IMG/VR virus record: IMGVR_UViG_3300027801_000211
Coordinates: 1 to 20,258 of that record
Length of the DNA: 20,258 nt
Reading direction: 5' to 3' (one strand)
DNA from: a virus
A model generated the notes under the pieces. The model made no database searches and was not told the DNA's origin. It was given only the letters and a program-made list of their open reading frames with translations. Both the position numbers and the translations under genes were made by a program. Positions 2,687-10,726 of the stretch are shown one piece after another. The stretch's first letter is position 1. The number at the start of each line of letters is the position of its first letter.

Positions 2687-3268
2687 ATGAGAGATTATTG
2701 TATTGAGATACCTGCATTGGCCGGTATTATTACAAAAGAAAGAGAGAAAGAGCTGATTGCAGCAAGGAAGGATCCAAGACCATGGGTTGATGGTATTGAA
2801 TGTTATGGATGGCAAGAAGATTTTGCTGGTTTAAATGCAGATTTGTTTGAGAGTGGTGATGTAGATCTTCCATATGATGGACTGATCTCTAATGATGATT
2901 TTCAAAAAGGATCTGTTCGTGCATGCTTATGTAAGAAAGAACCAGGGTATGATTTTGTACCACATACAGATACGGGATATGTTTTAATATTTCCGTTTAA
3001 TGTACTTGATGATCCGGATGATTACAAGTTGCAGTATATAGATCCTAATGGATATACGTGGGAAGATCAGTTACAATATGAACACAAGTATCGTGTGAAT
3101 GAAGATGGTTATGTTATACCTATTCTTCATAATGGACCGGGGTGGTTACATACGGTTGTTTATAATAGTCCGGAACCTAAATGGTGGATGCAAATAATAT
3201 TGAATCCGAAAGAAGGTGGATGGAATGAATTATTGGAGAACGTAGAAAACGGTAATATTTTTAATTAG
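2687..3268 (+). CDS. Putative 2-oxoglutarate/Fe(II) oxygenase-like (cupin-fold) protein
   Basis: This 193-residue protein has a distant resemblance to the double-stranded beta-helix oxygenases common in marine phages. His93-Thr-Asp95 (in P-H-T-D-T-G) could be the H-x-D iron ligands, followed by strand V-L-I-F-P-F-N. His155 (in G-W-L-H-T-V-V-Y-N) could be the distal histidine. The expected C-terminal Arg that binds 2-oxoglutarate is not clear: the matching strand reads P-K-W-W-M-Q-I-I-L, with Lys165 the only basic candidate. It may therefore use a different co-substrate or be a non-enzymatic cupin-like protein. The N-terminal 80 residues carry no recognised motif. The gene sits between two membrane-protein genes and is followed by the AGGAGAATA leader of the next gene. 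The fold assignment is by motif and spacing only. Confidence 0.45.
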   Translation: MRDYCIEIPALAGIITKEREKELIAARKDPRPWVDGIECYGWQEDFAGLNADLFESGDVDLPYDGLISNDDFQKGSVRACLCKKEPGYDFVPHTDTGYVLIFPFNVLDDPDDYKLQYIDPNGYTWEDQLQYEHKYRVNEDGYVIPILHNGPGWLHTVVYNSPEPKWWMQIILNPKEGGWNELLENVENGNIFN

Positions 3269-3280: not shown

Positions 3281-3412
3281 ATGGGAAGTAATTTAGGTTT
3301 AGTAGTAATGGGATTAGTTGCAATATTTGCAACATCAATGATTAAAATTGTGGCTATCGCTGCAATAGCTTGGGGTGGATACAAAGCTTATAAAGATTGG
3401 GGAGCGCAGTAA
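3281..3412 (+). CDS. 43-residue single-pass membrane peptide (holin-like size)
   Basis: A short gene with a strong AGGAGAATA leader starts at ATG 3281 and ends in TAA at 3410-3412. The product is almost entirely one hydrophobic helix (residues 5-31, with Gly/Ala/Ile/Val and a lone Lys22 in the middle), followed by a short aromatic and basic tail (Y-K-A-Y-K-D-W). Its stop codon overlaps the ATG of the lipase gene (TAATG), so the two are likely made in a coupled way. The small size, the amphipathic flaw in the helix and the link to a lipase are compatible with a holin-like or membrane-targeting helper. No homologue is recognised, so this remains a hypothesis. Confidence 0.75.
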   Translation: MGSNLGLVVMGLVAIFATSMIKIVAIAAIAWGGYKAYKDWGAQ

Positions 3413-4182
3413 TGAGTATTTGGCATATGGATATAAAACAAAGGAGTGTATTATTTGCACACCTCGCAGCTGATGCGTATGGCGTTGAGAAGGCCGTTAA
3501 GAAAATAGCAAAGACACATGGCTTCACTAAATGTAAATTCTATGACAACGGTGGAGCTCAAGCATATAGATTTGAATCACCTACAGATGTTGTTATAGCT
3601 TGTCGTGGTACAGAACCTTCTGAATTTAATGATCTCAAGGCAGATCTTAAAGCATTTCCTGTACCAGCAGAAACAATATCAAGAGTTCATAGAGGCTTTA
3701 AGAATGAAGTTGATGAACTATGGCCGATGGTTAGACCTGATGTAGAGAAGGTTACAAAGAACTTATGGTTCTGTGGTCATTCATTAGGTGCAGCAATGGC
3801 AACTATTATGGCAGCAAGATGTTCATATAGTTATGACATGCCTGATCCAGTACAGTTATATACATTTGGTTCACCAAGAGTTGGTTGGCATGCTTATGTT
3901 AAAGGTATGAAAGTAGACCATATAAGATGGCAGAATAACAATGATATAGTCACAAGAGTACCATTGATGATCATGGGATACAAACATCATGGTCATTTAA
4001 TGTATATAAGACATGATGGTTCTGTTGATGATGATGGTAAATGGTCACCGATTGGTAGATTTATTGATCGTATGAAAGGAATGTTAGGTGGTTTGGTACA
4101 ACTTAAGGTCGATAATTTCTCTGATCATGCCATGGCAGAGTATATTCCACATCTTGAAAGGTGGAAAGAAAAGGATGTATAA
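3412..4182 (+). CDS. Class 3 lipase family protein
   Basis: This 256-residue alpha/beta hydrolase of the fungal lipase-like class 3 family probably hydrolyses acyl ester bonds in glycerolipids or phospholipids. The nucleophile elbow G-H-S-L-G-A-A places Ser124 as the nucleophile. The strand V-V-I-A-C-R-G-T-E at 60-68 is the usual oxyanion-region motif, and V-H-R-G-F at 92-96 is also typical. Asp178 (N-N-D-I-V-T-R-V-P) and His192 (Y-K-H-H-G) complete a plausible triad in the right order, so the enzyme looks intact. No signal peptide is visible. ATG 3412 overlaps the stop of the 43-residue membrane peptide; a TTG at 3397 would add five residues and is less likely. The stop codon lies within the late promoter at 4178. 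Roles in membrane damage at lysis, membrane remodelling or lipid metabolism are all possible. Confidence 0.92.
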   Translation: MSIWHMDIKQRSVLFAHLAADAYGVEKAVKKIAKTHGFTKCKFYDNGGAQAYRFESPTDVVIACRGTEPSEFNDLKADLKAFPVPAETISRVHRGFKNEVDELWPMVRPDVEKVTKNLWFCGHSLGAAMATIMAARCSYSYDMPDPVQLYTFGSPRVGWHAYVKGMKVDHIRWQNNNDIVTRVPLMIMGYKHHGHLMYIRHDGSVDDDGKWSPIGRFIDRMKGMLGGLVQLKVDNFSDHAMAEYIPHLERWKEKDV

Positions 4183-4185
4183 ATA
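4178..4185 (+). promoter_or_regulatory. T4-type late promoter TATAAATA
   Basis: An exact match to the T4 late-promoter octamer (recognised in T4 by gp55 with gp33 and the gp45 clamp) overlaps the lipase stop codon, 35 bases before the ATG at 4220. It would start a unit reading through 4220-7734. Confidence 0.75.
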
Positions 4186-4219
4186 TATTAAAGTAATAAC
4201 GTATATCGCGGAGATATAA

Positions 4220-4582
4220 ATGGCAGACACAGAATTACGCGATATAGAGTTGCGTTTAGAACGAATGCATAATGCATTGGCAAGACAGGAAGAAGAGTTA
4301 TCATCTTGGAGAGAAAGATCTGCAAGGTTACCAAACTGGATAAGGAATGGTGGGCTAGCCCTCTTCTTTGCTTTATTTGCACAGTCGATGACTGCAGTAT
4401 GGTGGGCATCTGAGATAACTAATACCCAACAAAATATGTTGGCTGATGTCAAAGTAAATACAGAATTTAGGATAGCATCTACCGAACGGTATAATGATAT
4501 CATGATAGAAATAGTCAAGATCCAAGTAATGATGGATAACCATTTTAACAAAGATAATCGTGAAAGATATAACGATCAATAA
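4220..4582 (+). CDS. Membrane protein with flanking coiled coils
   Basis: This 120-residue protein has a charged N-terminal helix with heptad-like spacing (about 5-35), a hydrophobic segment at 43-66 (G-G-L-A-L-F-F-A-L-F then T-A-V-W-W) and a second amphipathic helix (about 72-110). This looks like a single-pass inner-membrane protein with helices on both faces. It could be a holin-like, spanin-like or other envelope protein; no family motif decides this. A GGAG sequence lies just upstream of ATG 4220. It is the first gene after the late promoter at 4178 and directly follows the lipase, so it may share a role with it, although it is in a different predicted transcription unit. Confidence 0.75.
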   Translation: MADTELRDIELRLERMHNALARQEEELSSWRERSARLPNWIRNGGLALFFALFAQSMTAVWWASEITNTQQNMLADVKVNTEFRIASTERYNDIMIEIVKIQVMMDNHFNKDNRERYNDQ

Positions 4583-4593
4583 AAAGGAATAAC

Positions 4594-5880
4594 ATGAAAT
4601 CAATCAAACAAATCAGAGAAGCATCAGGCGGTAAGGAAGCTTACCAAAAATTCTTCAATTCAATACTTAAAAGATTCGGCGTAGGTTCACCAGCTGAATT
4701 AGAAGGAGATGCAAAGAAGAAATTCTATGATGCAATCGATGCTGGTTGGGATGGTGATAATGAAAAGCCTGAGCCTGGAGATAAAAAGAATGAGAACACT
4801 GATGACTTTAAGTCTGATGAAGATGTTCCAGATGATAAAGGCAACTACACCATGGGTGACATGGCTGAATCACCGGCTATAGCAGTAAAAGTTGCTGCAG
4901 CCATTGACAAAAAGAATGAAAAGAAGAAATCAGTTAAAGAAATTAGAGTAAAGCCTGTTGATGAGAAGATGGGAATGTGTGAGCAGTGTGGTACAATGCA
5001 TGAAGAAGGTGACTGTCCTCAATCTGATATGGATATGAGTGATCTAGATCCTGATACTAAAGGTATGGCTGAAGCAGAAATTAAAGAAAAATCTAAGCTA
5101 AAGGCTGGTAAAGGTAAAATCACTGTTGATCTTAATTGGGATGGTACTGCTAGAGATAAAAAATTTGCAGAAACTAAATACGGTATTAAGCTTAAGATAA
5201 CAAGAACTGGTGCATTAGCTACAGGTGAAAAGGCAAGAGTCTTAGCATATGTATCTGGTCAAGATTATGCAATGGATGATGCAGACATTGAAGATTTAAT
5301 GCCAGAAATACTAGAGGCTAGAGGATCTGACCTATCATCTGCTGAACTTAAAAAAGCTGAGAAGATTGCTAAGAAACATTCTGGTGATATGAAAAAAGCT
5401 ATGGCAGAAATCGAGAAGATTAAAAAAGGTTCATCTGAATCTGATGCTGTAATGACTATGCTTAAGAAACATAATGAAGACACTACTGAAGATATGTACA
5501 TGCATACTTCTAAGAAGAAAAGAAAATTAAAAGCACATAAGGGCGATCATATGGATGAAGCTGTTAGTGTTGATCGTAGAACAATGGGTTTTAAAGAAGC
5601 TATGAAGAGACGTGCTGAAGCAAAAGCTAAGCGTGAAGCTAAGAAGATTAAAGATGCTAAGTCACAAGCTAAGTCAGACATGGCTAGTATCGATGCTAAC
5701 TATGCATATGATGGTGATGTAGCAGAGATTCTTGCAAGTGCTAATAAAAGTATTATGGGACAACATGAAGATGCTGCAGCAAATGCATCAAGTTCAGGTG
5801 CTGTTGATATGAATACTAATGGCAAGAGTGTCAAGAAAAAGAAAGATAAAGAAAACCTTATGGCAAAATACGGGTACTAA
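4594..5880 (+). CDS. Charged structural-type protein with a Cys/His cluster
   Basis: The 428-residue protein is very rich in Lys, Asp, Glu and Ala. Residues 16-58 contain F-F-N-S-I-L-K-R-F-G-V-G-S-P-A-E-L and a K-K-F-Y-D-A-I-D-x-G-W stretch, a small helical motif seen in many proteins of marine T4-like phages. A possible metal site, Cys129-x2-Cys132-x3-His136-x4-Cys141, follows an acidic linker. A more ordered part at about 170-240 contains I-T-V-D-L-N-W-D-G-T and looks beta-rich. The C-terminal third is basic and helical, with Ala/Lys-rich repeats, and ends K-Y-G-Y. The composition suits a head-internal, core or DNA-associated virion protein, and the position just upstream of the neck genes agrees, but there is no direct proof. 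AAGGAATAAC before ATG 4594 provides a usable ribosome-binding site. Confidence 0.8.
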   Translation: MKSIKQIREASGGKEAYQKFFNSILKRFGVGSPAELEGDAKKKFYDAIDAGWDGDNEKPEPGDKKNENTDDFKSDEDVPDDKGNYTMGDMAESPAIAVKVAAAIDKKNEKKKSVKEIRVKPVDEKMGMCEQCGTMHEEGDCPQSDMDMSDLDPDTKGMAEAEIKEKSKLKAGKGKITVDLNWDGTARDKKFAETKYGIKLKITRTGALATGEKARVLAYVSGQDYAMDDADIEDLMPEILEARGSDLSSAELKKAEKIAKKHSGDMKKAMAEIEKIKKGSSESDAVMTMLKKHNEDTTEDMYMHTSKKKRKLKAHKGDHMDEAVSVDRRTMGFKEAMKRRAEAKAKREAKKIKDAKSQAKSDMASIDANYAYDGDVAEILASANKSIMGQHEDAAANASSSGAVDMNTNGKSVKKKKDKENLMAKYGY

Positions 5881-10243: not shown

Positions 10244-10726
10244 ATGGCACATGAATTTAAAGCACAACTAGTAAGAGTAGTTGATGGAGATACCATCGAC
10301 GCAGATATCCATTTAGGATTTAACATGATCATGAGAGATCGCATCCGTTTAATGGGTATAGATACACCTGAGAGTAGAACAAGAAACCTACAAGAGAAAT
10401 CTTGGGGTATGGCTTCTAAGCATAGACTGATAGAACTATTGGCAGAAACTGATGGCGAATTTACTTTGCACACAGAAGAAATGAAGAAAGGTAAGTTCGG
10501 AAGAGTATTAGGTACGATTATGGTTAACGGTAAAGATGCTAACCAAGTACTAATAGACGAACAACTTGCTATACCTTACCTTGGCGGTAACAAAGACGAA
10601 AGTCGAGCTAACGCTGGAGTAGGTGAATTATGGAATACATATTATGAAAACCCACAAGAGCACGACGATGACCATGAACATGGAGACGAAAATCCAGAAG
10701 CACACATCGACTGGCACGAGCACTAA
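10244..10726 (+). CDS. Staphylococcal nuclease-like (thermonuclease) protein
   Basis: A Ca2+-dependent SNase-family phosphodiesterase, cutting DNA and/or RNA. The 160-residue protein has V-V-D-G-D-T at 12-17, R-I-R-L-M-G-I-D-T-P-E at 33-43 and G-K-F-G-R-V-L-G at 83-90. The active-site residues of S. aureus nuclease (Asp21, Arg35, Asp40, Glu43, Arg87) are all present, and by count they fall at the same numbers here. Unlike many SNases it has no signal peptide, so it acts in the infected cell or in the particle. Residues 136-160 form a tail with six His and ten Asp/Glu, possibly metal-binding. The gene is inserted between gp15 and gp16, and its 3' end overlaps the start of the small terminase gene. 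A role in host DNA breakdown or in DNA processing at packaging is possible. Confidence 0.93.
   Translation: MAHEFKAQLVRVVDGDTIDADIHLGFNMIMRDRIRLMGIDTPESRTRNLQEKSWGMASKHRLIELLAETDGEFTLHTEEMKKGKFGRVLGTIMVNGKDANQVLIDEQLAIPYLGGNKDESRANAGVGELWNTYYENPQEHDDDHEHGDENPEAHIDWHEH

Follow-up and report, generated by a model that had tools for sequence, protein, structure and literature searches.

The lipase locus

The DNA analyzed here, referred to below as the window, is the whole of the 20,258-base IMG/VR virus record IMGVR_UViG_3300027801_000211. Among named phages, its large terminase (TerL) is closest to that of Phage C48C1 (63.4% identity), followed by those of cyanophages and Melnitz phages, and we therefore regard the record as that of a T4-like marine phage. 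An earlier reading made from the letters alone (the sequence-only reading) saw no peptidoglycan-degrading enzyme here. For the window this is correct, but the record probably covers only 20 kb of a full genome of about 140 to 155 kb. In Phage C48C1 itself, an endolysin is annotated and a T4-type lysozyme is present, and our lipase search found no match in it.

We called genes with a simple in-house caller; those described in this paragraph all lie on the plus strand. The small membrane protein that the sequence-only reading had placed at position 2410 was borne out as a 90-aa protein (2410 to 2682) with an N-terminal transmembrane segment (residues 7 to 25) and a Glu/Leu-rich C terminus that is probably a coiled coil. 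Its family, F8, serves below as a marker of lysis cassettes. The next gene (2687 to 3268) encodes a 193-aa protein that sits between F8 and the peptide only in the window and in three related loci (L002, L005, and L006), and is probably an insertion outside the module. It is followed by the genes for a 43-aa single-helix peptide (3281 to 3412; family F20/F59, or PEP) and a 256-aa class 3 lipase (3412 to 4182), the stop codon of the former overlapping the start codon of the latter in the sequence TAATG (3410 to 3414). The membrane protein reported just 3′ of the lipase is also present, as the 120-aa protein F9 (4220 to 4582), although its one central hydrophobic segment (residues 45 to 63), flanked by probable coiled coils, is weak (Kyte-Doolittle mean, 1.46).

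A curli operon (1 to 1970) borders the cassette and encodes a FecR-domain protein (PF04773; E = 5e-7) and a curlin-repeat-like protein, the latter match being below the cutoff. Directly 5′ of the cassette is a gene for a small 4Fe-4S ferredoxin (1970 to 2224; Fer4_10, E = 3.6e-7). The 428-aa protein encoded at 4594 to 5880 begins with MKSIKQIREA, a start that we take to be reminiscent of T4 capsid-targeting sequences. Between neck and terminase genes lies a gene for a staphylococcal-nuclease-like (SNase) protein (10244 to 10726), homologs of which occur within the lipase cassettes that other phages carry (for example, at 70267 to 70734 in record G018), with 24 matches in the 80 F8 loci analyzed below.

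The lipase and its catalytic residues

The lipase matched Pfam family Lipase_3 (PF01764) with an E value of 2.5e-19 and a score of 70 bits against a gathering cutoff of 22, making it a member of that family. It matched no other Pfam family, DUF676 appearing only below the cutoff, and in PHROGs it matched the esterase/lipase family phrog_21992 (E = 4.4e-27). When a profile of 17 homologs was compared with the PDB, it found fungal class 3 lipases (best E = 2.5e-17) and, more weakly, plant phospholipases A1 (3.1e-07). Foldseek placed an AlphaFold2 model of the lipase (mean pLDDT, 76.9) in the same neighborhood, with modest TM-scores of ~0.5. The phage enzyme would be expected to hydrolyze glycerolipids.

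The sequence-only reading had described an intact lipase with GHSLG, Asp178, and His192 as its catalytic features. The first two stand: Ser124 of the GHSLG motif (codon at 3781 to 3783) and Asp178 (3943 to 3945) are each invariant in all 17 aligned homologs. The same is true of His239, in the motif DHAM (codon at 4126 to 4128), the counterpart of which is also invariant in 13/13 sequences of a further alignment. His192 is likewise invariant in the 17-homolog alignment, so conservation alone does not decide between the two histidines. However, His192 lies in a GYKHHG stretch that aligns with the GYSHSSPEYW stretch of Thermomyces lipase, which we presume to be without the catalytic histidine. 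In fungal class 3 lipases, the catalytic histidine is found closer to the C terminus, a position that His239 fits. We rejected His192 on these grounds, and His239 is the more likely catalytic residue. Among 54 dereplicated relatives, GxSxG was present in all 54, NNDxV in 50, and DHx[MI] in 52.

Neither a signal peptide nor a transmembrane segment was seen in the lipase, and of the 53 dereplicated relatives whose N-terminal part is complete, 52 lacked a hydrophobic segment there. The enzyme should therefore remain cytosolic as long as the inner membrane is intact.

The coupled peptide and the small membrane proteins

The single hydrophobic segment of the peptide spans residues 8 to 26, and its stop codon overlaps the lipase start codon in all 22 loci that hold the pair, the window included, confirming the translational coupling to a one-helix peptide that had been noted earlier. 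The peptide is conserved as a protein (pN/pS of 0.32 across 22 sequences). Failure of the two genes to co-occur in related phages had been named as an outcome that would refute the proposed module; in fact, they do co-occur in relatives. The features expected of a holin (small size, at least one transmembrane segment, and proximity to lysis genes) are all found in the peptide, whose relatives adjoin a T4-type lysozyme gene and an i-spanin gene in loci L177 and L182. It matched no holin family in our Pfam and PHROG profile scans, and we regard it as a candidate holin from its size and topology only. A search with the peptide alignment returned 15 loci, all on contigs that other searches had also recovered, and no match in named phages was obtained by tblastn with the peptide, the F8 of the window, or two further F8 proteins.

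We tried and rejected two identities for F8. Its match to XhlA (PF10779) reached 18.3 bits against a cutoff of 34.7 (E = 0.0026). The topology of F8 would suit an i-spanin, but spanins, where present, are encoded by a separate overlapping gene pair beside F8. For F9, we found a homolog in gp41 of the podophage Lau218 (34.8% identity over 92 aa). Two further small protein families were encountered in these phages. One is a family of 110- to 111-aa membrane proteins encoded near the lipase and F8 genes (L009:7269-7601 and L025:3105-3440); the L025 member matched the mechanosensitive-channel beta domain PF00924 just below the cutoff (E = 0.001), and the L009 member gave no match. The other, common to lipase phages, comprises 73- to 77-aa proteins with two hydrophobic segments (G001, 83480 to 83707; L025:3546-3767) that are holin-like candidates.

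Gene neighborhoods in related phages

With the window lipase as the sole query, we recovered 75 related loci. F8 was present in 29 of them, and the lipase occurred without an F8, peptide, F9, or spanin open reading frame (ORF) in the stretch covered in 42; the remaining 4 (L007, L013, L016, and L070) end at the lipase or just 5′ of it but carry F9. The peptide family was found in 25 of the 75 loci, 21 with the 43-aa type and 4 with a 51- to 52-aa type. Gene order varied, being F8-peptide-lipase in the T4-like clade and in L067 and L076, F8-lipase in L025 and L027 to L029, and lipase-F8-...-peptide in L074 and L075. Persistence of the linkage through such changes of order speaks for genes that work as a set.

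Searching with F8 yielded at least 568 relatives; we analyzed the best 80 loci, a selection that favors near relatives and in which about 22 loci are contigs already among the 75. The lipase was present in 48 of the 80, and many of the lipase-free loci carried an overlapping i-spanin/o-spanin ORF pair 5′ of F8. The existence of F8 loci without a lipase implies that F8 function, whatever it is, does not require the enzyme. Because related contigs are redundant, we give dereplicated counts beside the raw ones: at 90% dereplication there were 26 F8 clusters, 18 with the lipase and 7 with a spanin, and a lipase, spanin, or peptidoglycan hydrolase accompanied F8 in 23 of them, two of the others having no marker and one having the peptide only. 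In L177 and L182, a T4-type lysozyme, the peptide, i-spanin, o-spanin, F8, and lipase all lie within ~4.5 kb.

A lipase-seeded search with a further alignment, A5, gave at least 556 relatives, and among the best 80, again a selection weighted toward near relatives, we counted 69 loci with F8, 38 with the peptide, 25 with o-spanin, 22 with i-spanin, and 10 with a SleB-type hydrolase. At 85% lipase identity, these formed 54 clusters, of which 47 had F8 (on the lipase strand in 47/47), 27 the peptide, and 17 a spanin ORF. When neighboring ORF families were ranked in this set, F8 came first after the lipase itself, and the peptide was next once antisense frames were excluded. These fractions are inflated, because most A5 lipases were first met through F8; the 29/75 given above carries less bias. 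Seven of the 80 A5 loci (L244, L246, L253, L258, L263, L278, and L281) share the order peptide-(gp33)-i-spanin-o-spanin-lipase-F8-gp37.

The hidden Markov models (HMMs) used for these counts were self-built from few or single seeds, with one sequence each for i-spanin, o-spanin, and both hydrolases, and part of the matches were judged by eye. The spanin seeds, gp34 and gp35 of Melnitz, matched the PHROGs "Rz-like spanin" annotation with E values of 5.3e-17 and 4.6e-15.

As a control, we ran the same lipase profile against a bacterial and archaeal genome collection. Only 8 of the 76 loci recovered carried F8 (L304, L320, L321, L324, L325, L327, L328, and L329), and we read these as binned phage contigs. 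The remaining 68 had no F8, peptide, or spanin ORF, which ties the linkage to the phage copies and not to the enzyme family itself.

Lysis genes in larger records

Every lipase-bearing record of at least 60 kb that we examined (G001, G002, G003, and G018) has a spanin-like gene. The 152.7-kb record G018 encodes a T4-type lysozyme at 28.9 kb and a SleB hydrolase at 45.2 kb; its i-spanin, o-spanin, lipase, SNase, peptide, and F8 genes lie contiguously, in that order, at 68.8 to 71.2 kb. G002 (99.6 kb) has a lipase-peptide-F8 group and a spanin pair ~22 kb away, and G011 combines lipase-F8-peptide with a lysozyme-spanin cluster. G001 (140.5 kb), which belongs to the window lineage, and G003 (61.3 kb) each encode a lipoprotein resembling a unimolecular spanin; that of G001, whose C-terminal hydrophobic stretch and topology were judged by eye, lies ~9 kb from the module. 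Close linkage to endolysin and spanin genes is thus seen in relatives and not in the window itself.

Searches with PF00959 and PF07486 gave no match in G001, G002, or G003. No peptidoglycan hydrolase was among the matches listed in Pfam scans of 84 of the 200 predicted G001 proteins, which is not proof of absence; a "putative metallopeptidase" (DUF6782) and a PHROG "peptidase" were among the G001 matches. In G004 and G005 (~50 kb each), also of the window lineage, no endolysin or Rz-like spanin was found beside the module. Four full or nearly full lone-lipase records of 35 to 52 kb (G006, G007, G010, and G012) had no spanin, F8, or peptide, and two of them (G010 and G012) encode a SleB hydrolase. 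A look for conventional lysis genes elsewhere in the genome turned up spanin-like genes (G001, G002, G003, G011, and G018) and, in G018 and G011, peptidoglycan hydrolases, but an incomplete search of the window lineage revealed no such hydrolase.

Interpretation

Lysis by phages of Gram-negative bacteria is taught as three steps, carried out by holin, endolysin, and spanin. A survey of spanins could identify none in 91 of 677 genomes, and its authors asked about another route (PMC6139136). In many marine phages, a class 3 lipase is linked to spanins, endolysins, and a small coupled membrane peptide, which points to a step of enzymatic lipid degradation. The orphan families F8, peptide, and F9 are likewise marked as lysis candidates.

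Our preferred reading, to which we give a probability of roughly 60%, assigns the lipase to a modular phage lysis cassette as an accessory enzyme, acting alongside endolysin and spanin and not in their place. The lysis-module idea is strongly supported genomically, because relatives of F8, the peptide, and the lipase adjoin spanin and endolysin genes elsewhere. The lipid-attacking lysis module of the sequence-only reading thus survives in part; what finds no support is the notion of the lipase standing in for the standard lysis set. Beyond the gene linkage, we infer every step, including the role of the peptide and the step of lysis served. The lipase would build up in the cytosol until, at the end of infection, the inner membrane is permeabilized; the candidates for a holin-like or recruiting protein are the peptide, F8, and F9. 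The enzyme could then reach the inner and outer membranes and hydrolyze glycerolipids and phospholipids, acting together with spanin and endolysin. Such hydrolysis may help complete the breakdown of the envelope and free the progeny from membrane debris.

Among the observations that weigh against a lysis role are the 42 of 75 loci in which the lipase is alone, the window lineage with no recognized endolysin or Rz-like spanin beside the module, and a curli operon that is equally close and would also fit a role in envelope secretion. The first would suit an auxiliary metabolic gene whose product releases the fatty acids of host lipids during infection, to supply energy or to allow remodeling, and host-lipid use is thinkable for these lone lipases. 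Family F39 lies near the lipase in 8 of the lone-lipase loci, and the one member that we scanned is fatty acid desaturase-like (L037:4905-5900; PF00487, E = 2.1e-29). We consider a metabolic role unlikely, since it leaves unexplained the linkage with F8, peptide, spanin, and cell wall hydrolase genes across rearranged orders.

The curli genes raise another alternative, an envelope-remodeling or secretion module built with the phage curli pore CsgG/CsgF and serving, for example, protein release or superinfection exclusion before lysis. In L018, genes for CsgG (E = 9.3e-48), CsgF (2.1e-11), and CHASE2 (3.8e-27) lie beside the cassette (L018:1-6045), together with FecR, and the neighbor families of this locus recur in L028 and L029 in another gene order. 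A lysis-timing role of phage CsgGF has been proposed for Melnitz (PMC9004378). Canonical cassettes (L246 and G018), however, place the lipase between o-spanin and F8, and we give the secretion module little chance of being the answer.

That the lipase replaces a missing endolysin or spanin step in the window lineage seems improbable. The hydrolase searches of G001, G002, and G003 agree with such a replacement, as does the cultured cyanophage P-SSM2, which is listed as spanin-less in the survey cited above (PMC6139136) and encodes a class 3 lipase (Lipase_3, E = 9e-21). The P-SSM2 lipase lies near a weak gp37 homolog (E = 1.2e-4) and near primase and ribonucleotide reductase genes, surroundings that resemble the Melnitz lysis region in all of these genes. 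We nevertheless rejected replacement of the spanin, given the spanin-like genes in G001, G002, G003, G011, and G018, and the hydrolases of G011 and G018 speak against replacement of the endolysin. It is very improbable that the lipase is associated with the virion or with ejection and acts as infection begins: ORF order puts the window gene among head and neck genes, but no tail or capsid-targeting feature was seen, the peptide coupled to it is a membrane peptide, and the lipase keeps company with lysis genes in G018 and in A5 loci.

Returning to an accessory lysis enzyme, we offer tentatively a broader form of the idea. Many marine T4-like phages may use a fourth lysis step, hydrolysis of phospholipids by a class 3 lipase delivered through the peptide or F8, and for spanin-less phages, of which P-SSM2 is an example, this enzyme might be an alternative means of disrupting the outer membrane. 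Since P-SSM2 is cultured, is on the spanin-less list, and carries a class 3 lipase, the spanin-less question is testable there.

Comparison with known systems

In fold and sequence family, the phage lipase goes with the fungal class 3 lipases of Rhizomucor miehei and Thermomyces lanuginosus and with the plant phospholipase A1 CaPLA1. These are eukaryotic enzymes, and the fungal ones are secreted, whereas the phage enzyme has no visible signal peptide.

A likeness in gene order is seen with Methylophilales phage Melnitz, in which gp32, gp34, gp35, and gp37 are homologs of the peptide, i-spanin, o-spanin, and gp37 in the same order as in the seven A5 lipase loci. Melnitz has gp36 (DUF1353) where the lipase cassettes carry the lipase and F8, and no lipase match was found in it. 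In Lau218, gp42, beside the F9 homolog gp41, is a homolog of the spanin-like lipoprotein of G001; Lau218 differs in being a podovirus, its gp41 and gp42 have no annotated function, and it gave no lipase match.

The nearest tested parallel, and one whose role may be comparable, is the mycobacteriophage enzyme LysB. It belongs to a different hydrolase family from the class 3 lipases, and it differs further in its mycobacterial hosts, its mycolate ester substrates, and its lack of F8 or peptide partners. Like the role proposed here, however, LysB of Ms6, a mycolyl-arabinogalactan esterase, is a lipolytic enzyme of a lysis cassette that also contains endolysin and holin, and cells infected with Ms6 without LysB lyse but release progeny poorly (PMC5707550). 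A second parallel is the GDSL lipase of a siphovirus of Pseudomonas syringae, whose gene adjoins those for holin and endolysin; this lipase, too, belongs to what is probably a Gram-negative phage lysis cassette (PMC12173070). It differs in family, in having a carbohydrate-binding domain, and in phage type, and it is not a class 3 enzyme with F8 and peptide partners. We found no description of a class 3 lipase in a lysis cassette in the literature searched, the closest papers being these two (PMC5707550 and PMC12173070). The idea of a lipase in the lysis cassette of a Gram-negative phage has thus been published before, for the siphovirus (PMC12173070); what is new here is the class 3 family, the tiny coupled peptide, F8, and the spread of this set over many marine phages.
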